Below are positions 1,469 through 15,777 of a stretch of 64,000 nt of DNA, in pieces. The notes below the pieces were generated by a model. That model saw only the letters and a program-made list of their open reading frames with translations, had not been told where the DNA came from and did no database searches. This stretch comes from Rhizobium sp. CC-YZS058 (lineage in GTDB: Bacteria > Pseudomonadota > Alphaproteobacteria > Rhizobiales > Rhizobiaceae): assembly GCF_034720595.1 (NCBI RefSeq), contig NZ_JAYESJ010000001.1, positions 3,188,001-3,252,000 of the forward strand, in the 5' to 3' direction. Both the position numbers and the translations under genes were made by a program. Every line of letters begins with the position of its first letter. Position 1 is the stretch's first letter.

Positions 1469-2236
1469 ATGACCCGCCCGATCTTCGACCTGTCCGGCCG
1501 CCGCGCGCTCGTGACCGGGGCAAGCCGCGGGATCGGCCAGACGATTGCGCGGGCCTTGGCCGAAGCCGGCGCCGATGTGGCCGTCACCGCCCGCAGCACC
1601 GCGACGCTGGACGAGACCCGGTCCCTCATCGAGGCAAGCGGGAGACGCGCGGTGGCGCTGGCCCAGGATGTGCGCGATGTGGAGGCCTGCGCAAGGGTTA
1701 CGGCCGAGGCTGCGGCGGCGCTTGATGGGCTCGATATCCTGGTCAACAATGCCGGCTTCGAACAGGTCAGCCCCTCGCTCGATGTCGACGAGGCGCTCTG
1801 GGACCAGATCCTCTCCACCAATCTGAAGGGCGCCTTCTTCTGCGCCCAGGCGGCAGGGCGGATCATGGCGCCGGCCGGACAGGGGTCGATCATCAATCTC
1901 TGCTCGCTCACCTCCTATGTGGGTATTCCGACAGCGGTTCCTTACGGCGCGTCCAAGTCCGGCCTGCTGGGTGTCACCCGGGCGCTGGCTGCGGAATGGG
2001 CGCCGAAGGGCATCCGCGTCAATGCGATCGCTCCCGGCTATTTCCGCACGGCGATGACCGAAGTCTTCTACGAAAACCAGGCCTGGCAAGAGACCATGCT
2101 GGCGAAGATCCCGCAGGGGCGCTTCGGCCAGGACAGCGACATCGGCGGCGTCGCCGTGTTCCTCGCAAGCGACGCCGCCGCCTATGTCAACGGTCACTGC
2201 ATCCCGGTGGACGGCGGATTCCTTGCGTCGATCTGA
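1469..2236 (+). CDS. SDR oxidoreductase (gluconate 5-dehydrogenase-like)
   Basis: A 255-residue classical short-chain dehydrogenase that would reduce or oxidise a secondary alcohol with NAD(P). Visible motifs are TGASRGIG near residue 16, NNAG near 90, a Ser in the LCSLTSY stretch, YGASK as the YxxxK active site, and a C-terminal DGGF. The start at 1469 follows CTGGAGAACCCT and gives normal family length; the open frame upstream of it is not needed. It points toward the transporter operon beginning at 2504 but is separated from it by about 270 bases holding a separate promoter. It could therefore be a companion enzyme of that pathway or an independent gene. Gluconate 5-dehydrogenase or 2-deoxygluconate 3-dehydrogenase are only closest-family names. 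Confidence 0.85.
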   Translation: MTRPIFDLSGRRALVTGASRGIGQTIARALAEAGADVAVTARSTATLDETRSLIEASGRRAVALAQDVRDVEACARVTAEAAAALDGLDILVNNAGFEQVSPSLDVDEALWDQILSTNLKGAFFCAQAAGRIMAPAGQGSIINLCSLTSYVGIPTAVPYGASKSGLLGVTRALAAEWAPKGIRVNAIAPGYFRTAMTEVFYENQAWQETMLAKIPQGRFGQDSDIGGVAVFLASDAAAYVNGHCIPVDGGFLASI

Positions 2237-2388: not shown

Positions 2389-2421
2389 TTGACGCATCTT
2401 GTACAGGCCTGTATAGACAAG
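2389..2421 (+). promoter_or_regulatory. sigma-70-type promoter with overlapping HutC-type operator
   Basis: TTGACG at 2389-2394 and TATAGA at 2412-2417 are separated by exactly 17 bases, which is a good housekeeping promoter. Overlapping the spacer and -10 is the palindromic stretch 2398-2421, which begins CTTGTACAGG and ends CCTGTATAGACAAG. The second part resembles HutC-family operators of the CTTGTAT..ACAAG type. A HutC-like repressor is encoded in the operon (9065-9814), so autoregulation by blocking the -10 is the natural inference. Confidence 0.65.
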
Positions 2422-2503
2422 TCACGACAGAAGCGGCGCTGCGACGACGGCGACGCGTAAGGACAAGGCCCCGATCGGGCCAAGGGCAGTGAGGGGAAAC
2501 GCC

Positions 2504-3640
2504 ATGGGCGTTGCTGGCGCCGGGTTCCGGCAGGCCGTATCCGCAGCCGAGGCCATTGCCGTTTCGGTCAAGCATGTCGGCATGCGGTTCGGCCCGGTGG
2601 ATGCGGTCAAGGATGCATCGTTCGATTTGCCGCGCGGCCGCTTCCTCACCATTCTCGGCCCGTCCGGCTCCGGCAAGACGACGCTGCTGCGCATGATCGC
2701 GGGCTTCGACCGGCCGACCAGCGGCGAGATCTTCATCAATGGCGCCCCGGTCAGCGCCGTGCCGCCGCATGCCCGCGCCATCGGCATGGTGTTCCAGAAG
2801 CTGGCGCTCTTCCCGCACATGACCGCCGCCGAAAACGTGGCCTTTCCCTTGAAGATGCGCCGGCATGATGCGCGCACCATCCCCGCCAAGGTCGAGCGCT
2901 ATCTCGATCTCGTCCGGCTCGGCGGCTATGGCGAGCGGCGGATCAACGCGCTGTCCGGCGGCCAGCAGCAGCGCGTCGCCATTGCCCGTGCGCTGGTGTT
3001 CGAGCCGGACCTGCTGCTGCTCGACGAGCCGCTCGCCGCACTCGACCGCAAGCTGCGCGAGGAGATGCAGCTTGAATTCCGCCGCATCCAGAAGGAGCTC
3101 GGCGTCACCACCATCAACGTCACGCACGACCAGCGGGAAGCGCTCGTCGTGTCGGACGAGGTGATCGTCATGGACGGCGGACGCATCCAGCAGAAGGCCC
3201 GGCCGGTAGAGGCCTATCGCAGCCCGGCCAATGCCTTCGTGGCGAATTTCATTGGCGTCACCAATTTCCTTGAAGGCCGCGTGATCGCGGTCGACGGCCC
3301 GGCGGTGACGATCGAGGCGGCCGGCGTGCAGATCGCGGGCATTGCGGCGGAAGCGGGCCTTGCGGTGGGCGCCGCCTGCGCTGGGGCGATCCGGGCCGAG
3401 CAGATCCGCATCGCGCCGCTCGAAGCGCGGCTCGACGGGCTGTCCACCCTGGTCGAGGCGCATGTCGAGGACTGCATCTTCGAGGGCGAGCGCATGGTCT
3501 ATGAGCTGCGCGTGCCAATGCTCGGCGGCGCCCTGATGCGCGTTTTCGACCATGATGCCGAATCCCACCTTCAGTTCAGCGCGGGCGACGCGGTGCGCCT
3601 CGGCTGGAATGTTCGAGACATGCACGTCTTTCGAAAGTGA
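2504..3640 (+). CDS. ABC transporter ATPase, PotA-like
   Basis: A 378-residue ATPase of the spermidine/putrescine-type (CUT1-like) importers, working at the inner face of the membrane with the two permeases that follow. Walker A GPSGSGKTT is at about residues 52-60, the Q-loop at MVFQ near 95, the signature LSGGQQQR near 150, and Walker B LLLLDEP near 170. The C-terminal 90 residues form the TOBE-type regulatory domain expected for this class. The ATG at 2504 is preferred over a GTG at 2489 because GAGGGGAAAC lies just upstream. It is the first gene of the long operon. Substrate is not polyamine by necessity; this family also imports sulfonates, phosphonates and metals. Confidence 0.9.
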   Translation: MGVAGAGFRQAVSAAEAIAVSVKHVGMRFGPVDAVKDASFDLPRGRFLTILGPSGSGKTTLLRMIAGFDRPTSGEIFINGAPVSAVPPHARAIGMVFQKLALFPHMTAAENVAFPLKMRRHDARTIPAKVERYLDLVRLGGYGERRINALSGGQQQRVAIARALVFEPDLLLLDEPLAALDRKLREEMQLEFRRIQKELGVTTINVTHDQREALVVSDEVIVMDGGRIQQKARPVEAYRSPANAFVANFIGVTNFLEGRVIAVDGPAVTIEAAGVQIAGIAAEAGLAVGAACAGAIRAEQIRIAPLEARLDGLSTLVEAHVEDCIFEGERMVYELRVPMLGGALMRVFDHDAESHLQFSAGDAVRLGWNVRDMHVFRK

Positions 3641-3674
3641 CCCCGAGAAGGTCCAGCCAGAGGAGAATGCTTCA

Positions 3675-4790
3675 ATGTCAGACGAGAAGATCCTGTCCGC
3701 GAGCCTGCGCCGCCGGACCCTGCTTGCTTCGATAGCGGCGGCCGGCGCATCCGCTGGCCTCTCCACGCTGGGCGTGCCCCGCGCCTTTGCGCAAGAGCCG
3801 GAAAAGCCGGCCGAAATCATCGTGCGCGCCTGGGGCGGCAGCTGGGTCGATGCGCTGAAGGCCGGCGTCTCCGACAGCTTCACCAAGGAAACCGGCATCG
3901 CGGTTCGCCACGACCTGACCGAAGACAACGAGATCCAGCCGAAGGTCTGGGCGGCCGTGGCGCAGAAGCGCGTGCCGCCGATCCACATCAACTGGGACAC
4001 GACGACCAATGCCACGAAATCGGCGCTGCGCGGCGTGACCGAGGATCTCTCGGACCTGGCGAACCTGAAGAACGCCACCGACCTCGCCAAGCCGGTCGGC
4101 CTCGACGGTTATCCGATCGTCAACACCTACGGCTATGTCTATGTTCTGGCCTATCGCCCATCCGCCTTCCCCGATGGACCGCCGAAGAGCTGGAAGGACC
4201 TGCTGGACCCGAAGCTGAAGGGCCGCATCGCGCTTTATAATGACGGCATCGGCTTCCATTTCCCCGCCCAGGTCGCCGGCGGCGGCAAGCTGGAGGATAT
4301 CCCCGGCAACATGCAGCCCGCCTGGGATTTCATCACCAAGATCAAGGCGCAGGACCCGCTGCTCGGCGAGGATCCGGATTTCACCACCTGGTTCCAGAAG
4401 GGCGAGATCGACGCCGCCTGCACCATCTCCACCAATGCGCGCGAAGCCAAGAAGAACGGCATCGAGATTGCCTGGGTGGTGCCGGAGGAAGGGGCGAAGT
4501 TCGATACCGATGGCCTGTGGATCCCGAAGGGCCTGCCGGAAAACGAGCTCTACTGGGCCAAGCAATATATCAACCACGCGCTGACCAAGGAGGCGCAGCA
4601 GATCTGGCTCGACGGCCTCGGCCTGCCGGGCGTTATCCCGGGCGTCAACCCGCCGGCCGATCTCGCAAACGATCCCTCCTACCCGACCAAGGACGAGGAC
4701 TTCAAACACCTCATCCGCATCTCCTCCAAGGTGCAGGTCGAGAATGAGAGCCAGTGGTTCGCCAAGTTCAAGGAAATCATGCAGGGCTGA
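3675..4790 (+). CDS. ABC transporter substrate-binding protein, PotD-like
   Basis: A 371-residue periplasmic binding protein. It carries an N-terminal export signal with three arginines (LRRRTLL, residues 11-17), suggesting Tat export, and a likely cleavage after AFA near residue 39. The mature part has the PotD/AfuA-type two-lobed fold, with the opening strand IIVRAWGGSW and an SWKDLLDP motif. The start has AGGAGAATGCTTCA upstream. It follows the ATPase by 34 bases. An unusually stable hairpin follows its stop codon. The ligand cannot be assigned from sequence; the neighbouring alcohol dehydrogenases suggest a hydroxylated organic compound. Confidence 0.88.
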   Translation: MSDEKILSASLRRRTLLASIAAAGASAGLSTLGVPRAFAQEPEKPAEIIVRAWGGSWVDALKAGVSDSFTKETGIAVRHDLTEDNEIQPKVWAAVAQKRVPPIHINWDTTTNATKSALRGVTEDLSDLANLKNATDLAKPVGLDGYPIVNTYGYVYVLAYRPSAFPDGPPKSWKDLLDPKLKGRIALYNDGIGFHFPAQVAGGGKLEDIPGNMQPAWDFITKIKAQDPLLGEDPDFTTWFQKGEIDAACTISTNAREAKKNGIEIAWVVPEEGAKFDTDGLWIPKGLPENELYWAKQYINHALTKEAQQIWLDGLGLPGVIPGVNPPADLANDPSYPTKDEDFKHLIRISSKVQVENESQWFAKFKEIMQG

Positions 4791-4799
4791 GCCCGGCAG

Positions 4800-4832
4800 C
4801 GCCTGCCGCCGGAGCAAGCCCGGCGGCAGGCG
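4800..4832 (+). terminator. GC-rich intra-operon hairpin after potD-like gene
   Basis: A perfect 13-bp stem (CGCCTGCCGCCGG at 4800-4812 with its complement at 4820-4832) and a 7-base loop lie between the binding-protein gene and the first permease gene. There is no T-run, so it is more likely a 3' mRNA-stabilising or partial-termination element, which would make the binding protein more abundant than the permeases. Confidence 0.6.
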
Positions 4833-4858
4833 TCCCATCCACGGTGAAGGAAGGCCCC

Positions 4859-5803
4859 ATGCGCACGCCTCGTGCCGCCTATCCCCTGACATGGCGCGTG
4901 ATGGATGCGCTGGAACGCCTGGCGGCGATGGTGTGGCCTGCCCGCTTCGGCAGTGCGTTGCCCTATCTCATGCTGCTGCCGGCGCTTCTCTTGGTCGGGC
5001 TCCTGGTGCTCGGCCTCGTCGAGATCGGCGACACGAGCCTGCGCACGCTGGACACCAGCACCTTCCTGCTTTCGGATGTCCGGACGCTCGACAATTACCG
5101 CCGCGTGCTGACGGAGCCCTTCTTCCTGACGGTGGCGAGCCGCAGCCTGATCGGCGCACTGATCGTGACTGTGGTCACGCTGATCTTCGCCTTTCCCTAT
5201 GCCTATCTCATGGTGCGCACGCCGTCGTCCGGCCTGCGCAAGCTGCTGCTCGTCGCACTGTTCCTGCCCTTCTTCATCGGCCAGGTGGTCCGCGCCTATG
5301 GCTGGCTGATCATTCTCGGCAGCCAGGGCATGGTGAACGAGGCGCTCGGCCTCGTCGGCGTGCCGCCGATGCAGCTTCTCTACAATTACCCGGCCGTGCT
5401 TTTTGGCCTCGTGCAGTACATGCTGCCCTTCGCGGTCCTGATGCTGGCGCCGGCGCTGACGGCGATACCCGCGGAACTCGAGGCTGCCTCCGCCTCGCTC
5501 GGCGCCAACTGGCTGCGCACCTTCCGCCATGTCGTCCTGCCGCTCGCCCGCCCGGGTCTGGTCGGCGCAGGGCTTGTGGTGGTGACGCTGTCGCTCACCG
5601 ACTTTGCCATTCCCGCCATTCTCGGCGGCGGGCGGCAGGATTTCATTGCCAATGCGATCTACGACCAGTTCTTCCGCACCTCCGACCAGGGCATGGGAGC
5701 CACGCTGTCGCTGATGCTGGTCGCGGTCGGCTCCATGCTGGTCGGCGTCGTCTTCCTGCTGTTCGGCGCAGGCACGCTGGCGATGGGCGGCGAGCGGAAA
5801 TGA
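4859..5803 (+). CDS. ABC transporter permease, PotB-like
   Basis: A 314-residue inner-membrane permease of the PotB type. About six hydrophobic segments are visible, beginning with LPYLMLLPALLLVGLLVL. An EAA-type loop (AELEAASASLGANWLRTF) that contacts the ATPase is followed by the usual PLARPGL stretch. The ATG at 4859 follows GAAGGAAGGCCCC; the longer upstream reading would run through the hairpin. It pairs with the PotC-like permease seven bases downstream to form the channel of the importer. Confidence 0.88.
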   Translation: MRTPRAAYPLTWRVMDALERLAAMVWPARFGSALPYLMLLPALLLVGLLVLGLVEIGDTSLRTLDTSTFLLSDVRTLDNYRRVLTEPFFLTVASRSLIGALIVTVVTLIFAFPYAYLMVRTPSSGLRKLLLVALFLPFFIGQVVRAYGWLIILGSQGMVNEALGLVGVPPMQLLYNYPAVLFGLVQYMLPFAVLMLAPALTAIPAELEAASASLGANWLRTFRHVVLPLARPGLVGAGLVVVTLSLTDFAIPAILGGGRQDFIANAIYDQFFRTSDQGMGATLSLMLVAVGSMLVGVVFLLFGAGTLAMGGERK

Positions 5804-5810
5804 GGATGCC

Positions 5811-6611
5811 ATGACCGGAAGCCGCAGCAAGTCCGTCACCCTCTGGACCTTCGTCACCCTTGCCCTGCTCATGCTCTCGGCACCGACCATCGTCGTGCTC
5901 GGTGCGTCGTTTACGGCCGGCAACATCATCACCTTCCCGCCGGACGGCTTCTCGCTGCAATGGTACGCCAAGATCGCGCAGGCGAGCGATCTGCGCCAGG
6001 CCTTCTGGCGCTCGCTCATCGTCGCGGCCATCTGCACGCTCGTCTCTATCCCGGTGGGCACGCTGGCCGGGATTGCGCTTGCCAAGTATCGGGTGCGCTT
6101 TGCCCGATCCATGCAGGTCTACCTGCTCCTGCCCTTCACCATTCCGCTGATCGGCTCGGGCATCGGCATGATGCTCGTCTTCGGCAATCTGGGCGTTCTC
6201 GGCCAGCTCTGGCCGGTCGGCCTCGCCTGCGCCGTCATCAACCTGCCCTTCATGATCTGGGCGGTGACGGCGAGCGCCAGCAATCTTTCCCCCGATCTCG
6301 AGCTGGCCGCTGCCAATTGCGGGGCGCCGCCGCTGCAGCGCTTCCTCTACATCACCCTGCCCGCCGTGCTGCCCGGCGTCATCACCGGATCGCTGCTGAT
6401 GTTCATCCTGGCGCTCAACGAATTTCTGGTCAGCCTGCTGCTGGTCGATGCCCGCAGCGTCACCCTGCCGGTCCAGATCTACAACTCCATCCGCTCGATC
6501 ATCACGCCGGATCTCGCCGCCATTTCCGTCGTGTTCATTCTCTGCGCCGGCCTGGCGATCGCAGCGCTCGATCGCTTCGTCGGCCTCGACATCTTCCTGA
6601 AATCCAAGTGA
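5811..6611 (+). CDS. ABC transporter permease, PotC-like
   Basis: A 266-residue second permease of the same importer. It has six hydrophobic segments and a PotC-style EAA loop (DLELAAANCGAPPLQRF). Its start lies seven bases after the stop of the PotB-like gene, so translation is probably coupled. The next gene, the HisD-family dehydrogenase, starts 60 bases downstream on the same transcript. Together, genes 2504-6611 form a complete importer (ATPase, binding protein and two permeases). Confidence 0.88.
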   Translation: MTGSRSKSVTLWTFVTLALLMLSAPTIVVLGASFTAGNIITFPPDGFSLQWYAKIAQASDLRQAFWRSLIVAAICTLVSIPVGTLAGIALAKYRVRFARSMQVYLLLPFTIPLIGSGIGMMLVFGNLGVLGQLWPVGLACAVINLPFMIWAVTASASNLSPDLELAAANCGAPPLQRFLYITLPAVLPGVITGSLLMFILALNEFLVSLLLVDARSVTLPVQIYNSIRSIITPDLAAISVVFILCAGLAIAALDRFVGLDIFLKSK

Positions 6612-6671
6612 TTTTTGAAATCCAAGTGAGCGGCCTTTCAAAGGCCCCCTGCCAGAGCCAAGGACAAACCC

Positions 6672-8000
6672 ATGACCGACGTGTCTTTCTACGAATATGC
6701 GGCACTGACCGCGGAGGAAAAGGCGGCCCTTCTGCGCCGGTCGGAAACCGACCTTTCGAGCTTCATGGAAAAGGTGGCGCCGATCCTGGAGGCCGTGCGG
6801 ACCGAGGGCGATGCGGCGCTGGCCCGCTTCGGCCGCGACCTCGACAAGGCGGACGTGACCGAGGCGACGCTGAAGGTCACCGAGGCGGAATTCGACGCCG
6901 CCTTCGGGCTTGTCGATGACAGCGTGGTCGAGTCGATCCGCTTCGGCATCGACAACATCCGCCATTTCCACGAGGAGCAGAAACCGGAGGCCATGTGGCT
7001 GAAGGAGATCCGCCCCGGCGCCTTTGCCGGCGATCGCTTCACCCCTATCCAGTCGGTGGCGCTCTATGTGCCGCGCGGCAAGGGCTCCTTCCCGTCCGTG
7101 ACCATGATGACCTCGGTGCCGGCGGTGGTGGCCGGCGTGCCGAACCTTGCCATCGTCACTCCGCCGGCGCCCGATGGCACGGTCGATGCCGCGACGCTGG
7201 TCGCGGCGCGGCTGGCGGGCGTGGAAACGGTCTACAAGGTTGGCGGTGCCCAGGCCGTCGCCGCCGTGGCCTATGGAACGGAAACGGTCAAGCCGGCGCT
7301 CAAGATCGTCGGCCCGGGAAGCCCCTGGGTGGTGGCCGCCAAGCGCGCGCTGGCCGGCGTCATCGACACCGGCCTGCCTGCCGGCCCGTCCGAGGTGATG
7401 ATCCTTGCCGACGACACGGTGCATGGCGGCCTTGCGGCCCTCGACCTGCTGATCGAGGCGGAACACGGCCCGGACTCCTCCGCCTATCTCGTCACCCACA
7501 GCCGCCGCGTGGCGGAAGAGGCGCTGGCCGCCCTGCCCGACCACTGGGCGCAGATGAGCGAGCAGCGCGTGGCCTTCTCCAAGGCGGTGCTGACCGGCAA
7601 GACCGGCGGCATCGTGCTGACCTCGTCGATCGAGGAGAGCTACGCCTTCGTCAACGCCTATGCGCCCGAGCATCTCGAGCTGCTCTCGGAAGAGCCCTTC
7701 ATCCATCTCGGCCATATCACCGAGGCGGCGGAGATCCTGCTCGGCACGCATACGCCGGTCTCGATCGCCAACTTCTCGCTGGGGCCGAACGCGGTGCTGC
7801 CGACCAGCCGCTGGGCGCGCACCTTCGGTCCGCTCTCCGTGACGGATTTCGTCAAGCGCTCCTCGATCGGCTATGTCACTGCGCCCGCCTACCCGGAGTT
7901 CGCCCGGCATTCGCACAATCTGGCGCTCTACGAGGGCTTCTCCTCGCATGCGCTGGCCGTGTCGCCGCTGCGGGCGCGCTACCTGAAAAAGGGAGCCTGA
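6672..8000 (+). CDS. HisD-family alcohol dehydrogenase (HpsN-like), not histidine biosynthesis
   Basis: A 442-residue member of the histidinol dehydrogenase family, which oxidises a primary alcohol in two steps to a carboxylate with NAD. The general-base pair of HisD is kept (APEHLEL, Glu333-His334), as are VGGAQA, the His of the first zinc motif (His265) and the C-terminal His426. Other HisD metal or substrate positions have changed: the zinc-ligand Gln is Glu262 (EAEHGPD), the Asp ligand is Asn367 (SIANFSLG), and the NHVLPT histidine is Ala374 (GPNAVLPT). Such changes, with no his genes nearby, fit the catabolic branch typified by sulfopropanediol 3-dehydrogenase HpsN. The actual substrate is inferred only to be a primary alcohol imported by the upstream transporter. 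Confidence 0.8.
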   Translation: MTDVSFYEYAALTAEEKAALLRRSETDLSSFMEKVAPILEAVRTEGDAALARFGRDLDKADVTEATLKVTEAEFDAAFGLVDDSVVESIRFGIDNIRHFHEEQKPEAMWLKEIRPGAFAGDRFTPIQSVALYVPRGKGSFPSVTMMTSVPAVVAGVPNLAIVTPPAPDGTVDAATLVAARLAGVETVYKVGGAQAVAAVAYGTETVKPALKIVGPGSPWVVAAKRALAGVIDTGLPAGPSEVMILADDTVHGGLAALDLLIEAEHGPDSSAYLVTHSRRVAEEALAALPDHWAQMSEQRVAFSKAVLTGKTGGIVLTSSIEESYAFVNAYAPEHLELLSEEPFIHLGHITEAAEILLGTHTPVSIANFSLGPNAVLPTSRWARTFGPLSVTDFVKRSSIGYVTAPAYPEFARHSHNLALYEGFSSHALAVSPLRARYLKKGA

Positions 8001-8003
8001 CCC

Positions 8004-9017
8004 ATGAAGGCGGTGCGGCTGCACGCGGCGCAGGATCTGCGGCTGGAGGAGGTAGAGGCCCCCTCCGCCCCGCCCCGCGGCCATGTGACGCTTGCCGTCC
8101 GTGCCGCCGGCATCTGCGGCTCCGACCTTCACAACTTTCGCACCGGACAATGGATCACCCGCAGCCCCTCCACCGCCGGCCATGAGTTCTGCGGACGGAT
8201 CATCGCGGTGGGCCGCGATGTCAACGGGCTGTCGGTGGGCGATCTGGTGGCAGCGGATTCCCGCTTCACCTGCGGCGTCTGCCCGGCCTGCCGCAGCGGA
8301 CGCGGCCAGATCTGCGAAGCGCTCGGCTTTGTCGGCGAGGCCTGCGATGGCGGCTTTGCCGAGGCGGTGACCCTGCCGGCCGCGCTTCTGCACCGGCACG
8401 ATCCGGCCCTGCCCCCTGCTGTGGCCGCCATGGCCGAACCGCTTGCCGTGGCGCTCCACGCCGTGCGCCGCCTGCGCCCGCCCCCGGGCGAGCCGGTTCT
8501 GGTCCTCGGGTGCGGCACGATCGGCGGGCTCTGCGCGCTGCTTCTGTCCCGCCTGCACGAGGGGCCGCTGCTTCTGGCCGATCTCAACGCCGAAAAGGCG
8601 GCCCTTGTGGCAGAGGTCTGTGCGGGACGGGCGATCGAGCTTTCGGCCGACACCGTTGCCGCGGCCCTGCCCGGCGGCCGGCTGCGCTATGCGCTGGACG
8701 CGACCGGTTCGGTGGCGGCGATCGAAACGGCGCTTTCGCTGCTTGCCGGCGGCGGTGCCTTGGCACTGGTTGGCATTTCGCATGGCCGGCTGTCGCTTGA
8801 TCCGAACCATCTGGTCGAGCGCGAGATCGCTCTTCTCGGCTGCCACGCCTTCGGTGACGAGCTGCCGGAGGCCATTGCCCTCCTTCCCGAGCTCGCGCCG
8901 GCGCTCCTGCGCTTCGTGACCGTGCTGCCCGGCCTGGATGCGGTGCCGGACGCCTATGAACGGCTGCTGCGCGGCGAAGGGCACGGGCTGAAGACCATCA
9001 TCCACGTGGCCGATTGA
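8004..9017 (+). CDS. zinc-dependent polyol/alcohol dehydrogenase
   Basis: A 337-residue medium-chain dehydrogenase of the sorbitol/idonate dehydrogenase group. Catalytic zinc residues are Cys38 (GICGSDLHN) and His60-Glu61 (AGHEFCG). The structural zinc site is complete, with Cys90, Cys93, Cys96 and Cys104. The Rossmann motif LGCGTIGG is near residue 170. It starts three bases after the HisD-like gene, so the two are almost surely co-translated. This class oxidises secondary alcohols of polyols. A role in interconverting stereoisomers of the substrate before the HisD-like step, as proposed for companion dehydrogenases in dihydroxypropanesulfonate degradation, is an inference. Confidence 0.85.
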   Translation: MKAVRLHAAQDLRLEEVEAPSAPPRGHVTLAVRAAGICGSDLHNFRTGQWITRSPSTAGHEFCGRIIAVGRDVNGLSVGDLVAADSRFTCGVCPACRSGRGQICEALGFVGEACDGGFAEAVTLPAALLHRHDPALPPAVAAMAEPLAVALHAVRRLRPPPGEPVLVLGCGTIGGLCALLLSRLHEGPLLLADLNAEKAALVAEVCAGRAIELSADTVAAALPGGRLRYALDATGSVAAIETALSLLAGGGALALVGISHGRLSLDPNHLVEREIALLGCHAFGDELPEAIALLPELAPALLRFVTVLPGLDAVPDAYERLLRGEGHGLKTIIHVAD

Positions 9018-9064
9018 GGCGCGCGCCTGACCGCGCGCTGCCGAACAAGGCGGAGACAAGCACC

Positions 9065-9814
9065 ATGGAGACGCTCCCGAATTCCGCCTCGCCGCTCTAC
9101 GAGAAGGTGAAGGACTTCGTGCTGGGCAATATCGGCAGCGGCAAATGGGGCCGCAACACGCGCCTGCCCTCGGAAAACGACCTGGTTCTCACCTTGGGCG
9201 TCTCGCGCATGACGGTCAACCGCGCGCTGCGGGAACTGACCTCGGAGGGCCATCTGCGCCGCATCCAGGGGGTCGGCACCTTCGTCGCGCCGCCGCGCCC
9301 GCAATCGACGCTGATCGAGATCAGCAACATCGCCACCGAGGTCAAGGCTCGGGGCAGTCGCTTCCGTGCCGAGGTGGTGGCGCTGGAGCGGATCGAGACC
9401 CCGGCGCCCGAACTGCTGATCGCCTTCGAATTCGACACGGTGCGCCCGGTCGACCATTCGGTCGTGCTGCATTTCGAGAACGACGTGCCGGTGCAGCTGG
9501 AAGAACGTTTCGTCAATCCGGCGCTTGTCTCCTTCTATCTGGAGCAGGATTTCACCCGGATGACCACCTACGACTATCTGCAGAACGCCACGCCGCTGAC
9601 CGAAGTGGAGCACCTGATCAGCGCCATGCCGGCCGGGCCGGAACAGGCGGCGCTGCTGCAGATGCGCAGCGGGGACAGCTGCCTCGTTCTCCACCGCAAG
9701 ACCTGGTCCGGCCCGATCATCGCCACTGTCAACACGCTGACCTATGTCGGCAGCCGCTATGTGCTCGGCAGCCGCTATGTGCTCGGCAGCCGCTATCTGC
9801 ACGGCGCCAAATGA
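9065..9814 (+). CDS. GntR/HutC-family repressor
   Basis: A 249-residue transcription factor. The N-terminal winged helix (about residues 12-75) contains the GntR signature LPSENDL and SRMTVNRAL. The C-terminal UTRA ligand-binding domain (about 95-240) resembles HutC. The ATG at 9065 follows GGCGGAGACAAGCACC and gives family length. It is embedded inside the operon it probably controls, and a HutC-type palindrome overlaps the operon promoter at 2389-2421. Its extreme C-terminus holds a duplicated VLGSRY unit caused by an 18-base tandem repeat. The effector is probably the pathway substrate or an intermediate; urocanate is unlikely because no hut gene is present. Confidence 0.87.
   Translation: METLPNSASPLYEKVKDFVLGNIGSGKWGRNTRLPSENDLVLTLGVSRMTVNRALRELTSEGHLRRIQGVGTFVAPPRPQSTLIEISNIATEVKARGSRFRAEVVALERIETPAPELLIAFEFDTVRPVDHSVVLHFENDVPVQLEERFVNPALVSFYLEQDFTRMTTYDYLQNATPLTEVEHLISAMPAGPEQAALLQMRSGDSCLVLHRKTWSGPIIATVNTLTYVGSRYVLGSRYVLGSRYLHGAK
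9748..9796 (+). repeat. 18-bp tandem repeat (2.7 copies) at the 3' end of the hutC-like gene
   Basis: The unit CGGCAGCCGCTATGTGCT occurs at 9748-9765 and 9766-9783 and continues for 13 bases to 9796. It is in frame and encodes repeated GSRYVL, lengthening the C-terminus of the regulator without breaking it. Such repeats can expand or contract by slippage. Confidence 0.85.
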
Positions 9815-9827
9815 AACGAGACCGAGA

Positions 9828-11123
9828 ATGACCGCATCCGTGAGCCGCACGGCCGAAATCCGAAAGGTCGCCCGGGAGGGAGACAGCAAGGGCGCCGAGG
9901 CGATGCTGTCCGCCCTTCTCGCCGATCTGTTCTCCATCCGCCCGCGCGGACTGGCGATCAATCACGACCAGTACAGCCTGAATTCGCTGAACGGCTTCTT
10001 CGAAACGGACGACGGCGCCTTCTTCTTCAAGTTTCACCAGGAGGAGGGCGAGGAGGCGATGAGCGGCGAATATTACCGCGCCGACCTGCTTGCCCGGGCT
10101 GGCCTGCCGGTCGACCAGCCGGTTTTGATGTCGGTGCTCCCGGGCGAGCAGATCCTCGTCTATCGCCGCCGCAGCGATCCGCGCTTTTCCGATGTCCTGC
10201 GGGCGCTGGATCTCGCAGACGAGCCGGAGGAACGCGCGCGCGCGGTGGCTGCGGAAAAGGCGCTGAATGCCGAGGTGCTGCGGGTCTACCAGGAGACGCT
10301 GCACCCGGTCTCTCCGGCCGAGGTGGCGGCCGAGCCGATCCACCGGCTGTTCTTCGAGCGCCTGATCGATTCGCCGGCCGGCAGCTTCCCGGGTGGGCGG
10401 CTGTCGCGATTCTATGTCGGCCAGAGCTTTGCCTTTCCGGGGCTGACGCTCGATTGGGACCGCTTTTCCGCCCTGCGCCTCTGCGTGAACGGCATCCTCT
10501 ACCGCGACAGCATCGGCGCTCTGTTCGAGGCGGCGAAGGCCCGCCTTGCCCCCACCATGATAGCGGATGCCGGCGGCGTGACCGCCCATGGCGATGCCCA
10601 CAACGCCAATGTGTGGTACGAGCGCCGGGGCGAAGCGGCGCGGCTTGCCTTCTTCGATCCCGCCTTTGCCGGCGACCATGTGCCGAGCTTGCTGGCCGAG
10701 GTGAAGACCACCTTCCACAACATCCTGGCCCATCCGCTCTGGCTCTATGATCCCACGCTGGCGAGCGACCGGTTCTTGGCCGAGGCGGCGCTCGACGGTG
10801 ACATTCTGCGCGTGACGACCAACCATGGCCTCAGCCCGGTCCGCCGCGATCTGCTGGCCGCCAAGGCGGACGGCCTCTGGCGGCCCCTGCTCGCCAGCCT
10901 GAAGGACCGCGGTCTTCTGCCGGAAGATTGGCGGCGGGTGGTGCGGCTGGCGCTGTTCCTCTGCCCGACCCTGGTGATGAACCTGCGTGCGGGCGCTGCC
11001 TCCCACACGCCCACCTCCTCGCTGATCGCCTTTTCGACTGCCGTCATGGCCGGCAGCGAGCCGGTTGACGGCGAGGACCTGATGACCCGCTTCTTCGACG
11101 CGATCGACCCCAACCGAGGCTGA
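9828..11123 (+). CDS. APH-fold phosphotransferase of unknown substrate
   Basis: A 431-residue protein with the landmarks of the aminoglycoside phosphotransferase/choline kinase fold. Lys68 (FFFKFH) fits the ATP-binding lysine and Glu81 its partner. The catalytic loop is HGDAHNAN at residues 254-261, and Asp277 (FFDPAF) would bind magnesium. It is therefore probably an active small-molecule kinase. It begins 13 bases after the repressor gene and ends one base before the FMN dehydrogenase gene, so it belongs to the same operon. I do not recognise a characterised close relative. Phosphorylation of the imported compound or of a pathway intermediate is the working guess. Confidence 0.75.
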   Translation: MTASVSRTAEIRKVAREGDSKGAEAMLSALLADLFSIRPRGLAINHDQYSLNSLNGFFETDDGAFFFKFHQEEGEEAMSGEYYRADLLARAGLPVDQPVLMSVLPGEQILVYRRRSDPRFSDVLRALDLADEPEERARAVAAEKALNAEVLRVYQETLHPVSPAEVAAEPIHRLFFERLIDSPAGSFPGGRLSRFYVGQSFAFPGLTLDWDRFSALRLCVNGILYRDSIGALFEAAKARLAPTMIADAGGVTAHGDAHNANVWYERRGEAARLAFFDPAFAGDHVPSLLAEVKTTFHNILAHPLWLYDPTLASDRFLAEAALDGDILRVTTNHGLSPVRRDLLAAKADGLWRPLLASLKDRGLLPEDWRRVVRLALFLCPTLVMNLRAGAASHTPTSSLIAFSTAVMAGSEPVDGEDLMTRFFDAIDPNRG

Positions 11124-11124
11124 C

Positions 11125-12273
11125 ATGCATCTGATCAATGTCGAGGATTACCGCCGCCTCGCCCGCCGCCGCCTGCCGAAGATCTTCTTCGACTATATCG
11201 ATGGCGGCTCCTTCGACGAGCAGACCATGCAGGCGAACCGCACGGATTTCGCCGGTTACGAGCTGAAGCAGACCGTGCTGGTCGAGCCGAAACCGCAGGA
11301 CCTGTCGACCGACTTTCTCGGCGTGCGGCAGGCCCTGCCCTTCATGCTCGGCCCGGTCGGCTTCCTGGGGCTCTATTCCGGGCACGGCGAGGCGAAGGCG
11401 GCACGGGCCGCCCATGCGGCCGGGATTCCGCTCTGCCTGTCGACCTTCTCGATCGCCTCGCTCGCCGATCTGCGGGCCGAGACCGCCGGTCCGCTGCACT
11501 TCCAGCTCTACGTGCTCGATGACCGGGAGTTGACCGAAGAGTTCCTGGCGGCCGCGCGGGCTGCCGCGGTCGACACGCTGTTCGTGACGGTCGATACGGC
11601 CATTACCGGCATTCGCGAGCGCGATGTGCGCAACGGGTTTCGCTCCCTGACCCGGCTGACGCCCGCCCTCCTCGCCCGTTTTCTCCTCAGTCCCCATTGG
11701 CTGCTCGACATGGCGCGGAGCGGGCACCCTTCAGTGCGGGCGATCGAGCATCGTCCCGATTTCGGACGTGGCGCGCTGGAGCAGGCGGCCAATCTCTCCC
11801 GCCGCATCGACAAGACACTATCCTGGACGGACATCGCCTGGCTGCGCGCGCGCTGGCAGGGCAAGCTGATCGTCAAGGGCGTGCTCTCGCGCGAGGATGC
11901 GGTGCGGGCCCGCGATCTCGGCTGCGACGGCGTGGTGATCTCCAACCACGGCGGCCGGCAGCTGGATGGGGCAACCAGCACCATCCGCGCCCTGCCCGGC
12001 ATTCGCGCCGCGGTCGGCCCGGGCTTTTGCCTGCTGCTCGATGGCGGCATTCGCCGCGGCACCGATATCGTCAAGGCGATCGGCCTCGGGGCGGATGGCG
12101 TCATGCTCGGCCGAGCCTATGCCTACGGCCTGGCCGGCGCCGGCGAGCGCGGCGTCGCCGACATCATCGCCATCCTGACCCGCGAGATCTCGATCAGCCT
12201 CGCCCTGATGGGCGTCGCCTCGATCGACGCCTTGAAGGCGGATGGCCCATCGCTGGTCCTGCCCCGGCGCTAG
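11125..12273 (+). CDS. FMN-dependent 2-hydroxyacid dehydrogenase (LldD family)
   Basis: A 382-residue flavoprotein of the lactate/mandelate dehydrogenase and glycolate oxidase family. These enzymes turn a 2-hydroxyacid into a 2-oxoacid and pass electrons to the quinone pool or oxygen. The active-site segment SNHGGRQLDG (His275, Arg278), Lys251 (IVKGVL) and the phosphate-binding LLDGGIRRG motif are intact. It is the last gene of the operon and starts one base after the kinase gene. It is the logical next step after the HisD-like enzyme, which would produce a 2-hydroxyacid from a 1,2-diol. L-lactate itself is possible, but no lactate permease accompanies it. Confidence 0.87.
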   Translation: MHLINVEDYRRLARRRLPKIFFDYIDGGSFDEQTMQANRTDFAGYELKQTVLVEPKPQDLSTDFLGVRQALPFMLGPVGFLGLYSGHGEAKAARAAHAAGIPLCLSTFSIASLADLRAETAGPLHFQLYVLDDRELTEEFLAAARAAAVDTLFVTVDTAITGIRERDVRNGFRSLTRLTPALLARFLLSPHWLLDMARSGHPSVRAIEHRPDFGRGALEQAANLSRRIDKTLSWTDIAWLRARWQGKLIVKGVLSREDAVRARDLGCDGVVISNHGGRQLDGATSTIRALPGIRAAVGPGFCLLLDGGIRRGTDIVKAIGLGADGVMLGRAYAYGLAGAGERGVADIIAILTREISISLALMGVASIDALKADGPSLVLPRR

Positions 12274-12525: not shown

Positions 12526-13350
12526 ATGAAGCTCTTGACGCCACTTCTGGCCGGCCTTGCCATGCTCGCCGCTGCCGACACCGCCTTTGCCGGCGAAACG
12601 CTCGACCGCGTGATGGAAAACAAGGCGATGGTCGTCGCCACCAACAGCAGCTGGCCGCCCCAGAGCTTCCTGGACGACAACAATGAGATGGTCGGCTTCG
12701 ACATCGACGTCTCGCGCGAGATCGCCAAGCGCCTCGGCGTCGAGGTCAGCTTCCAGACCCCCGACTGGGCAACGCTCACCGGCGGCCGCTGGCAGGGTCG
12801 TTACGACCTCGGCGTCGGCTCGGTAACGCCGACCAAGGCGCGCGCCCAGGTGATCGATTTCGCCGGCGTCTACTACTATAGCCCCTATGTCTACGTGGTG
12901 CACAAGGACAGCACGGCCAAGACCGTCGCCGACCTCAAGGGCAAGGTGATCGGCGTCGAAACCGCCACCACCTCCGAAGATTTCGTCCGCCATCAGCTGG
13001 AAATCGATGCGCCGGGCGTGCCGCCGGTCGAATACAAGCTCGAGCCGGGCGAGATCCGCACCTTCGCCGATTCCATGCTGCCCTTCGACGACCTTCGCCT
13101 CGGCGATGGCGTGCGCCTCGACGCGGTGATCGCGCCGGAGCAGACGGCCAAGAACGCGATCAAGAACGGCTATCCGCTGCGCATCCTCGATGATGGCTAT
13201 GCCTTCCGCGAGCCGCTGGTCGTGATCGGCGAAAAGGTCGATCCGGAATGGACCGCCAAGGTCGGCGGCATCATCGCCGAGATGAAAAAGGACGGCACGC
13301 TCGCCAGCCTGACCACCAAGTGGTACGGCAAGGACTACAGCGCCGACTAA
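12526..13350 (+). CDS. polar amino acid-type ABC substrate-binding protein
   Basis: A 274-residue periplasmic protein of the PF00497 type (solute-binding family 3). A Sec signal peptide occupies about residues 1-22 (ending TAFA). The start at 12526 follows GGGAGAACCCTG, giving normal length. It is the first gene of the importer that includes the permease at 14806 and the ATPase at 16649. Because the same locus encodes FrlB- and FrlD-like enzymes, the ligand is inferred to be a glycated amino acid (fructosamine) rather than a free amino acid. A stable hairpin follows its stop codon. Confidence 0.87.
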   Translation: MKLLTPLLAGLAMLAAADTAFAGETLDRVMENKAMVVATNSSWPPQSFLDDNNEMVGFDIDVSREIAKRLGVEVSFQTPDWATLTGGRWQGRYDLGVGSVTPTKARAQVIDFAGVYYYSPYVYVVHKDSTAKTVADLKGKVIGVETATTSEDFVRHQLEIDAPGVPPVEYKLEPGEIRTFADSMLPFDDLRLGDGVRLDAVIAPEQTAKNAIKNGYPLRILDDGYAFREPLVVIGEKVDPEWTAKVGGIIAEMKKDGTLASLTTKWYGKDYSAD

Positions 13351-13359
13351 GGACCCGGC

Positions 13360-13382
13360 GGGAGGCAGCCTCGCTGCCTCCC
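13360..13382 (+). terminator. hairpin after the binding-protein gene
   Basis: A perfect 9-bp stem (GGGAGGCAG at 13360-13368 with CTGCCTCCC at 13374-13382) and a 5-base loop are followed by CTTTC. It sits inside the operon between the binding protein and the FAD enzyme. It is probably a partial terminator or mRNA 3'-end stabiliser. Confidence 0.6.
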
Positions 13383-13507
13383 CTTTCGCGCGCGTGGCGT
13401 CTTCTGCCGCAGCGCGCGTGCGGCCGCCGCTTTCGCTCACACGATGGCGAACGCACCGCTCTGGCCAGTCCGCATCTTTCCTCTTCCGCAGCCCTTGCGA
13501 GCATCCC

Positions 13508-14788
13508 ATGCGCTATCCCGATACCTATTACCGCCGCACCATGGCCGATGCGAAGACGCGTCCGGCGCTTGCCGGCACTCTGGAGTGCGACACGCTGATC
13601 GTCGGCGGCGGGCTTGCCGGCTTGACGACCGCGCTGCAGCTTGCCCGCGCCGGCGTTTCCGTTGTCGTGCTGGAGGCGGAGAGCGTCGGCTTCGGCGCAT
13701 CCGGCCGCAATGGCGGGTTTGTCAGCCCCGGCTTCGCCACCGGGAGCGAGGCGATCGCCCGCGCGGCAGGGCCCGACAATGCCCGCGCCCTGCATCTCTT
13801 GTCGATCGAAGGCGTCGATTTCGTGCGCGAGACGATCCGCACGCTCGGCATCGCCGATGCGCATGTGCAGCCCGGCATCATGAGCGTGCTCCGCCAGGAC
13901 GGCGGCGACAGCCTGAAGACCTATGCCGACGCCATGCGCCGCGATTATGACTACACGCTGGAATTTCTCGGCAAGGACGCGGTGCGCAGCCATCTCAAGA
14001 CGGACCGCTACTTCCAGGCGCTGCGCGACCCCAACGCCTTTCACATGCATCCGCTCAACTATCTGCGTGCCGTCGCCGCCGAGATCGAGCGGCTGGGCGG
14101 ACAGATCTTCGAAGGATCGGCCGTTACCCGCTGCGCGCTCGACGGCGCGGAAAAGCAGGCGCACACGGCGAACGGCCTGGTCAAGGCGCGGCGCGTGGTC
14201 TTTACCACCGGCGGCTACACCGGCTCCCTCGTCGGCAAGCTCAAGCGCGCCTTCCTGCCGATCGCCACCTATGTGATGCTGACCGAGCCGGCGCCCGAGC
14301 TGATCCGCACCGCGATCGCGACGCGCGACGCGATCGGCGACAACCGCCGTGCCGGCGACTATTACCGCCTCGTGGAAAACGGAGAGCGCATCCTCTGGGG
14401 CGGGCGCATCACCACGCGCGCCGCCTCGCCGGCAGCGCTTGCCCGCGAACTCCGCCGCGAGATGACCACCACCTATCCGCAGCTGAAGCCGCTCAAGACC
14501 GAGCTCGCCTGGTCGGGCCTGATGTCCTATGCCCGCCACCTCATGCCCCAGATCGGCGAAATGCAGCCGGGCGTCTGGCACTGCACCGCCTTTGGCGGCC
14601 ATGGGCTGAATACCACGGCGATCGGCGGCAAGCTGGTGGCCGAGGCGCTGCTCGGGCAGTCCGATCGCTACCGCCTGTTCAAGCCGTTCGGGCTCGTCTG
14701 GGCCGGCGGCTATGCGGGGCTCGCCACGGCCCAGCTCACCTATTGGAAACTGCAGGCCCAGGACTGGTGGCGCGAGCGCGCTGCCTGA
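13508..14788 (+). CDS. FAD-dependent amine oxidoreductase (DAO family)
   Basis: A 426-residue flavoprotein of the D-amino acid oxidase superfamily. It opens with a PuuB-like MRYPDTYY and has the dinucleotide-binding motif GGGLAGL near residues 33-39, GASGRNGG near 66-73 and a C-terminal FGGHGLN flavin contact. These enzymes cleave C-N bonds of amines or amino acids oxidatively. In this locus it could act on a fructosyl-amino acid, parallel to the kinase/deglycase route, or on the released amine. The start is the ATG after GCATCCC at 13508; the start is less certain than the identity because no strong ribosome-binding site is visible. Confidence 0.85.
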   Translation: MRYPDTYYRRTMADAKTRPALAGTLECDTLIVGGGLAGLTTALQLARAGVSVVVLEAESVGFGASGRNGGFVSPGFATGSEAIARAAGPDNARALHLLSIEGVDFVRETIRTLGIADAHVQPGIMSVLRQDGGDSLKTYADAMRRDYDYTLEFLGKDAVRSHLKTDRYFQALRDPNAFHMHPLNYLRAVAAEIERLGGQIFEGSAVTRCALDGAEKQAHTANGLVKARRVVFTTGGYTGSLVGKLKRAFLPIATYVMLTEPAPELIRTAIATRDAIGDNRRAGDYYRLVENGERILWGGRITTRAASPAALARELRREMTTTYPQLKPLKTELAWSGLMSYARHLMPQIGEMQPGVWHCTAFGGHGLNTTAIGGKLVAEALLGQSDRYRLFKPFGLVWAGGYAGLATAQLTYWKLQAQDWWRERAA

Positions 14789-14805
14789 GCGGCAAGGAAA
14801 GACCC

Positions 14806-15777
14806 ATGATCGGACGCTTGATCCTCTCTTATCCCGTCGCCGCAAAGCGGCTCGGCGGCCTTCTGGTCCTGCTGCTGGTGGCGGCCGCGCTCTATGCCAT
14901 GGGCATCAGCGCCACCTGGATGGGCAAGCTCGTCCCATCGCTGGCCGACTGGCTGAAGGAAAACAAGCAGCTTGGCCGGGCGCTGTCGGCGATAAGCATC
15001 GCGCTCGTGCTGGCGATCAACTGGCGGCTGCTGCAGCTCCTGCCACGGCGGATGCAGATCGTCGCCATCTGGGTCGAGCTCTTTGCGCTCCTGATGCTGT
15101 TCTTCTATTCCTTCGATCTCTCCTTCGCCTTCATCGCCCGCAAGATCGGCTTCATGATCTCGCAGGGCGTGGTCACGACGCTCTATATCTCGGCGATCTC
15201 GATTGCGATCGCCACGCTGATCGCGCTGGCTGGCGCTATCGCGAAGCTGTCGAAGAACGGCGCCGTCTACGGTCTCGCCACCTTCTACACCTCGCTGTTT
15301 CGCGGCCTGCCGCTGCTGATGCAGATCTACATCATCTATCTCGGCCTGCCGCAGGTGGGCTATGTGATCAGCGCCGTGCCGGCCGGCATTCTCGCGCTGT
15401 CGCTGTGCTACGGCGCCTACATGACTGAGATTTTCCGCGCCGGGATCGAGAGCATTCCGCGCGGCCAGACGGAAGGCGCCACCGCGCTCGGCCTCAGCCC
15501 GAACCAGACGATGTTCCTCGTGATCCTGCCGCAGGCGATGCGGGTCATCGTGCCGCCGACCGGCAACCAGTTCATCGCCATGCTGAAGGATTCCTCGCTC
15601 GTCTCCGTCGTCGGCGTGTGGGAGATCATGTATCTCGCCCGCACCCAGGGCCAGACAGAGTTCCGCCATATCGAGATGCTGATCACCGCCTCGATGATCT
15701 ACTGGATCCTCTCGATCGGGCTCGAAATGCTGCAGTCGCGCATCGAAGCCCATTTCGGCCGCTTCAATGCCCGCTGA
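14806..15777 (+). CDS. amino acid-type ABC transporter permease
   Basis: A 323-residue permease of the His/Glu/Gln/Arg/opine class. It is longer than the usual 220-240 residues, with extra N-terminal membrane segments before the conserved core. The EAA motif region (EGATALGLSPNQTMFLVILP) and the GLPLLMQIY stretch are typical. The start at 14806 follows AAGGAAAGACCC. It overlaps the next gene by 11 bases. As the only permease of the locus, it would form a homodimeric channel with the ATPase encoded at 16649. Confidence 0.88.
   Translation: MIGRLILSYPVAAKRLGGLLVLLLVAAALYAMGISATWMGKLVPSLADWLKENKQLGRALSAISIALVLAINWRLLQLLPRRMQIVAIWVELFALLMLFFYSFDLSFAFIARKIGFMISQGVVTTLYISAISIAIATLIALAGAIAKLSKNGAVYGLATFYTSLFRGLPLLMQIYIIYLGLPQVGYVISAVPAGILALSLCYGAYMTEIFRAGIESIPRGQTEGATALGLSPNQTMFLVILPQAMRVIVPPTGNQFIAMLKDSSLVSVVGVWEIMYLARTQGQTEFRHIEMLITASMIYWILSIGLEMLQSRIEAHFGRFNAR

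Follow-up and report, generated by a model that had tools for sequence, protein, structure and literature searches.

The stretch analysed here, 64,000 nucleotides of Rhizobium sp. CC-YZS058 (contig NZ_JAYESJ010000001.1, positions 3,188,001 to 3,252,000; hereafter the window), carries at positions 2,389 to 12,273 an operon which we think likely to be a branch of the HutC regulon that converts a compound, probably an imidazole alcohol, into histidine. It encodes an ATP-binding cassette (ABC) importer, a HisD-like dehydrogenase, a zinc alcohol dehydrogenase, a HutC-type repressor, a kinase and an LldD-like flavin mononucleotide (FMN) 2-hydroxyacid dehydrogenase, and a short-chain dehydrogenase/reductase (SDR) gene lies upstream (Table 1). 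An earlier sequence-only reading had described a nine-gene operon for uptake and oxidation with a HutC-type repressor and operator, and this description proved real; the in-operon regulator exceeded the TIGR02018 cut-off and the operator was found. The operator consensus of the HutC subfamily is NyGTMTAKACNy (PMC4494728); the window has a single TGTMTAKACA, at 2410-2419, and 0 of 100 shuffles had one. In the whole 4.77-Mb genome it occurs at exactly two places (reversed-pattern control, 0), and the second, at C1:1264426, lies in the divergent promoter between a HutC gene (281.6 bits) and hutI-hutH-hutG-hutU, the HutH of which scored 724 bits against a cut-off of 539. The operon promoter and the hut operon of this genome hence share an operator of the GTMTAKAC type.

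We searched 297 genomes of the order for the kinase and for HutH, and detected the kinase in 19 and HutH in 166 (154 above cut-off). HutH was present in all 19 kinase-bearing genomes versus 147 of the 278 kinase-free ones (Fisher 1.2e-5, kinship not corrected for), and, counted by genus, in 9/9 with the kinase versus 62/114 without it (P 0.01, likewise not corrected for kinship). HutH is located at most 10 kb from the kinase in 12 of the 19 genomes, belonging to four of the nine genera, while random placement would be expected to bring this about in approximately 0.08 genomes. The layouts depend on the lineage: hutUGHI-hutF-hutC adjoins the FMN dehydrogenase/kinase end of the cluster, or hutGHI is divergent to the SDR gene, or hut genes lie past a Tau-type importer. 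As for the operator sites, in 13 kinase genomes (our own and 12 of the 18 others in the order) 27 of the 43 lie no more than 12 kb from the kinase or 6 kb from HutH.

To define the gene set, a kinase-profile scan of one genome per species over 84,980 species yielded 213 relatives, and the best 80 of these were kept as loci, to which all of the counts of gene homologues, importers and HisC-like genes below refer; a homologue was counted at an identity of at least 50%. The HisD-like gene was thus present in 77/80 loci, the zinc alcohol dehydrogenase in 76, the SDR in 70, the HutC-type gene in 57 and potA in 34, and SDR, HisD-like enzyme, zinc alcohol dehydrogenase and kinase occurred together in 70. 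The remaining ten loci are mostly short, with the exception of L086, in which the kinase stands alone in 21 kb. The FMN dehydrogenase, which the sequence-only reading had made the last step of its scheme, was in view in only 18/80. Because of these frequencies we regard the SDR as part of the system and the FMN dehydrogenase as optional; the system is wider than the nine genes of the earlier reading, the coordinates of which omitted the SDR. The importer is of Pot type in 36/80 loci and of Tau/Ssu type in another 36, both types never being found together and neither being in view in eight. A HisC-like transaminase was in view in 40/80 loci and is divergent to the SDR gene within 600 bp in 32; the copy of L064 scored 587 bits with NF003496 (cut-off 540). 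The window has no HisC-like transaminase, and the closest homologue in its own genome is 36% identical. GTMTAKAC was detected near the SDR start in 44/70 loci, near the potA start in 24/34 and near the hisD start in 25/76, against an average density of 0.083 per kb in all of this DNA.

Hut genes, counted as in view only at an identity of at least 45% (a 32% HutH-like gene in L047 was excluded), were seen in 9 of the 70 loci that have SDR, HisD-like gene and kinase all in view, the other 10 loci being dropped from this comparison. The in-operon hutC is absent from 8 of these 9, compared with 10 of the 61 elsewhere (Fisher 3.6e-5). Since the operon mostly lacks its own hutC where hut genes adjoin it, we infer that the cluster left hut loci carrying a HutC copy, or moved in the reverse direction. 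In addition, HisD-like relatives in L136 and L148 (two genomes of one family) lie downstream of hut genes on the same strand; hutI, hutH, hutG and hutU of L136 each scored above cut-off, and HutH was found in the genome of L148. The deeper HisD-like members L133, L139 and L145 are located away from hut genes.

The kinase also matched 107 plasmid records, mainly of Sinorhizobium and Rhizobium, and the conserved gene set is common in root-nodule bacteria. Plasmids of Klebsiella michiganensis (L188:7825-16991) and Pantoea (L189:10012-16984) carry a Tau-type importer with the HisD-like enzyme, kinase, zinc alcohol dehydrogenase and SDR, the core parts being annotated as 'histidinol dehydrogenase', 'alcohol dehydrogenase' and 'hypothetical protein'; the Klebsiella stretch additionally encodes an alpha-hydroxy acid oxidase. 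Next to the core, these two plasmids gave no match to a hut gene, except that an N-formylglutamate amidohydrolase is annotated in the Klebsiella stretch. Nine kinase genomes were found in a further scan besides our own, and eight of them were used (all but G796). In 8/8 stretches from outside the order the kinase lies at most 8 kb from a HisD-like gene with the EAEH motif, and the N..A motif matched in seven.

We then compared the HisD-like enzyme with its relatives. In HisD and HpsN, the metal ligands are Gln, His, Asp and His (PMC5585171, PMC11382572). In contrast to this set, all 80 operon-type proteins have Glu-His-Asn-His, with Gln replaced by Glu, Asp by Asn (followed by Phe) and the two His ligands kept; furthermore, a nearby His is replaced by Ala and PGG by PRG (signature residues E262, N367, F368, A374, F140 and R135 in the window protein). 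Gln, Asp and PGG are kept in 23/23 other proteins and the operon signature occurs in none of them, the set comprising 10 usual-type HisD (from 9 of 30 fetched loci, plus the separate usual-type hisD of our own genome) and 13 paralogues from 20 stretches chosen among the matches listed. Six intermediates (50-70% identical) resemble the operon type in Glu, Asn and PRG, with the nearby His still present in five. All 80 operon-type proteins retain the catalytic Glu-His, as well as the MtHDH-type Glu in contact with imidazole; these residues do not discriminate, being present, apart from one gap, in the other paralogues also; likewise, both the window protein (416.2 bits) and its sister in L136 pass TIGR00069. 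The sequence-only reading had drawn an analogy to HpsN, in which the motif G-R-Y-A/S-H supplies His126, and Lys353 contacts the sulfonate (PMC11382572). This analogy found no support, since Phe occupies both positions in 80/80, as mapped through the paralogues L146 and L147 (G-R-Y-S-H), CpHpsN itself being outside the alignment, and in the PDB the window protein is closer to HisD (4g07, 259.5 bits) than to HpsN (8v35, 173.7 bits). In the tree, 16 rows including those of Klebsiella, Pantoea and L134 form a clade (support 100/97), nested on a long branch within a wider Glu/Asn group, with a warning that long branches meet. On account of the residue signature and the separate clade, the enzyme is, judged by sequence, neither a standard HisD nor an HpsN, and belongs to a subfamily of its own.

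The kinase has K68, E81, H254-G255-D256, N261 and D277 invariant in 26 sequences, residues to which we assign the catalytic roles, and these together with the predicted fold place it in the APH/choline-kinase superfamily. It scored below the PF01636 gathering cut-off (15.7 vs 23.2 bits), none of the Pfam or NCBIfam models reaches its cut-off with it, and a sequence search of the PDB gave nothing relevant. An apparent in-frame TGA in the kinases of G683 and G886 proved to be the normal stop at the C terminus. As for the importer, all four subunits fall below the NCBIfam cut-offs for PotA, PotB, PotC and PotD, the ATPase reaching 347.7 bits with TIGR01187 (cut-off 355.6), which argues against a PotABCD polyamine importer. 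The structure of the binding protein did not yield a ligand class, the AlphaFold model being poor (mean pLDDT 53.2) and the profile relatives remote and mixed. In the literature, we found no described function for the HisD-like subfamily or the kinase family and, in agreement with the earlier claim that no pathway with this combination had been described, no substrate assignment (most subscription journals lay outside the search).

An orthologous operon is present on pSymA of Sinorhizobium meliloti 1021, consisting of hisC3 (SMa0387), SMa0391-0396, hisD2 (SMa0398) and SMa0402, with operator sites at 210200 and 211230 of NC_003037; this record was used without annotation, and the locus tags were assigned by gene order and from papers. 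In arrays of a tolC mutant of this strain, hisC3 (fold change -11.4), SMa0391 (-15.6), SMa0392 (-8.3/-23.5), SMa0394 (-10.5), SMa0396 (-10.1), hisD2 (-10.6) and SMa0402 (-8.4) all decreased, as did hutU (-10.3), hutG (-11.5) and hutH (-7.7) (PMC2912261, Table 2). The study contrasts the hut genes with the histidine biosynthesis genes, and its authors term the importer a system of unknown function. Elsewhere, the SMa0392 mRNA is targeted by the small RNAs AbcR1/2 (PMC8844928), the level of the SMa0391 protein was lower (PMC12542648), and in R. phaseoli root exudates induce hut genes and polyamine-type importers (PMC8581550); the relevant passages of these three papers name no substrate. This operon, the hut link and the HisC-like gene divergent to the SDR had all been missed by the sequence-only reading, the overall interpretation of which is supported in part.

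Taken together, we propose the following route. The ABC importer would take up a nitrogen-rich compound, most likely an imidazole alcohol or polyol such as L-histidinol, imidazolyl-propanediol, imidazoleglycerol or imidazoleacetol. Secondary alcohol groups would be the targets of the SDR and of the zinc dehydrogenase, the latter presumably of the secondary-alcohol type; the kinase would phosphorylate an intermediate, and the HisD-like enzyme would oxidise a primary alcohol to the carboxylate. The product would most likely be histidine, or else imidazole-lactate or -pyruvate, which the optional FMN dehydrogenase and the HisC-like transaminase could convert into histidine, to be burnt by HutH, HutU, HutI, HutG and HutF. 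Urocanate is a known inducer of HutC, and urocanate formed en route may lift the repression at both the operon and the hut promoters.

Several observations weigh against this route. Eleven further kinase genomes have no above-cut-off HutH within 10 kb of the kinase, the nearest being approximately 20 kb away (G567) and a weaker HutH-like gene approximately 10.1 kb away (G537), and the operon of the window itself lies approximately 1.9 Mb from the hut operon of its genome. Two of these eleven, G829 and G727 (each approximately 2 Mb, 94% complete), have the HisD-like gene and the kinase and no HutH, and the HisD-like protein is their sole HisD-family match; these organisms either make histidine with the HisD-like enzyme, or salvage histidine, or use the pair otherwise. 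Among the operator sites counted above, 16 of the 43 are near neither kinase nor HutH, in the 12 other kinase genomes the pattern is no commoner than its reversed control (41 vs 50 sites), and, in the window, the SDR has no TGTMTAKACA of its own; it is the locations of the sites, rather than their frequency, that are telling for the hut link. HutC-subfamily repressors respond to many ligands. The metal ligands differ from those of true HisD, and histidinol itself may therefore not be the substrate. Finally, ntrBC and many nitrogen genes are also down in the tolC mutant (PMC2912261), so that the co-variation of the operon with hut is supportive but not specific.

The main rival, which we consider possible but unlikely, is an opine- or Amadori-like substrate in which histidine is joined to a sugar or polyol; the dehydrogenases and the kinase would then break down the polyol part, freeing histidine for hut. 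The SDR, zinc alcohol dehydrogenase and kinase would fit a polyol, the hut linkage fits equally well, the putative fructosamine-3-kinase 3f7w is among the fold matches of the kinase (rank 10, E 1.4e-3), and agropine- and mannopine-binding proteins occur among the PDB profile matches of the importer's binding protein. However, these latter matches are remote (<50 bits) and include polyamine binders as well, and the HisD-like genes of L136 and L148 follow hut genes with no kinase, SDR or zinc alcohol dehydrogenase recognised by eye beside them, so that no conjugate would be needed there. A salvage route, which we rate as rather improbable, would put some steps of histidine biosynthesis to catabolic use: a dephosphorylated intermediate of that pathway, imidazoleglycerol or imidazoleacetol, would be phosphorylated again by the kinase, the housekeeping HisB, HisC and HisN or the linked HisC-like enzyme would lead to histidinol, and the Glu/Asn-type HisD would give histidine, to be degraded by Hut or kept by histidine auxotrophs. 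This would explain the optional HisC-like gene, as well as the HisD-like and kinase pair in the two genomes without HutH or another HisD, and would mean that the kinase activity is new and that HisD has a third subfamily.

It is more doubtful that the operon serves a nitrogen source unrelated to histidine, such as a polyamine or another amine, with the hut link reflecting shared nitrogen-scavenging regulation through HutC paralogues. The PotA-like subunits, the breadth of the HutC subfamily, the joint drop of nitrogen genes in the tolC data (PMC2912261) and the two kinase genomes without HutH agree with such a source, but the importer misses the polyamine cut-offs, the genome has only two operator sites, and, in several genera and with varying arrangements, the cluster is physically linked with hutF, hutI, hutH, hutG and hutU. 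Least probable is the scheme of the sequence-only reading, from a 1,2-diol without an imidazole ring (a C3 compound with a sulfonate or phosphonate group, for example) through the 2-hydroxyacid to the 2-oxoacid, for although this order of oxidation is possible in itself, the HisD family, the FMN dehydrogenase and two alcohol dehydrogenases match this chemistry and Tau/Ssu-type importers are frequent, the absent HpsN signature disfavours such diols, the PDB similarity is nearer to HisD, the FMN dehydrogenase is too rarely in view, and the hut linkage is left unexplained.

Table 1. Features of the operon and of the related gene pair; coordinates refer to the window unless a genome and contig are given.
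Feature	Coordinates	Strand	Evidence and remarks
SDR dehydrogenase	1469..2236	+	PF13561/PF00106; upstream of the nine genes, member of the conserved core
HutC-type operator region	2395..2423		core TGTATAGACA at 2410-2419
ABC importer ATPase, PotA-like	2504..3640	+	PF00005+PF08402
ABC importer substrate-binding protein, PotD-like	3675..4790	+	PF13416, 155 bits
ABC importer permease, PotB-like	4859..5803	+	PF00528
ABC importer permease, PotC-like	5811..6611	+	PF00528
HisD-like dehydrogenase, separate subfamily	6672..8000	+	PF00815, 446 bits
Zinc alcohol dehydrogenase	8004..9017	+	PF08240, PF00107
HutC-type GntR/UTRA repressor	9065..9814	+	TIGR02018 261.7 bits, cut-off 220
APH-like small-molecule kinase, unnamed family	9828..11123	+	invariant residues in 26 sequences; predicted fold
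FMN 2-hydroxyacid dehydrogenase, LldD-like, optional	11125..12273	+	PF01070, 411 bits
HisD-like + kinase pair	G829:C1:935523-936770 and G727:C36:2994-4223		L202, L203

A promoter scan found no sigma-70-like site. At 9744-9814, an imperfect tandem repeat closes the C terminus of the HutC-type protein (GSRYVL twice, then GSRYLH, from the translation). Genes for an amino-acid-type ABC importer and a DAO-type flavin adenine dinucleotide oxidase adjoin the operon at 12526-15777, a set not seen directly after the operon in the related loci. The genome contains a second cluster at C1:3637869-3641054 (L101:6869-10054), where genes for a HisC-like transaminase and an LldD-like FMN dehydrogenase accompany that of a HutC-type repressor (272.8 bits), the same trio of regulator, transaminase and dehydrogenase; by eye, it adjoins apparent LysR and PhyH-type dioxygenase genes. 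Also by eye, a glutamine-amidotransferase-like gene stands beside the HisD-like and kinase pair in G829 and G727. In G085 (L134:7020-12079), a HisD-like gene 68% identical to ours lies away from the kinase of that genome, beside what by eye appear to be a Tau-type importer and a HAD phosphatase, with an apparent class III aminotransferase farther along. Among the 13 other HisD paralogues, 11 keep the HpsN-type Lys, with the motif His replaced by Met or Leu; paralogues with this Lys, apparently of two types, are found in L135, L137, L138, L140-L144, L150 and L151.

The hut link narrows an open-ended substrate hunt to a few candidates amenable to testing in a laboratory strain, and hints at what the kinase family and the HisD subfamily, for which we found no described function, may do. 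The operon is carried by a model symbiont, S. meliloti 1021, on its pSymA. The current labels of the core parts, as on the Klebsiella and Pantoea plasmids, would mislead metabolic models.

Among known systems, the hut regulon of Proteobacteria (PMC5343134) resembles the operon in its HutC-type repressor and operator, and hut genes are physically linked to the operon in many genomes, while the operon adds an importer, an SDR, a zinc alcohol dehydrogenase, a HisD-like enzyme and a kinase that are not mentioned in the relevant parts of that paper. HisD, as represented by MtHDH (PMC5585171), shares with the operon enzyme the fold family, the catalytic Glu-His, the imidazole-contacting Glu and two His ligands, whereas the latter has Glu in place of Gln, Asn in place of Asp, Ala in place of a nearby His and PRG in place of PGG, and stands in a catabolic context. 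HpsN, the DHPS-3-dehydrogenase (PMC11382572), has the HisD superfamily in common with it, and a two-step oxidation of CH2OH to COOH would be possible in both, but the operon enzyme has neither the motif His nor the Lys that binds the sulfonate, and neither the Gln nor the Asp ligand. The kinase resembles PsiK and methylthioribose kinase, which have the APH/choline-kinase fold, in its predicted fold and catalytic residues, yet is only 8-12% identical to them. Finally, the pSymA operon hisC3-SMa0391-0396-hisD2-SMa0402 of S. meliloti has the orthologues in an identical order plus a HisC-like gene, and its kinase is 72% identical to that of the window.

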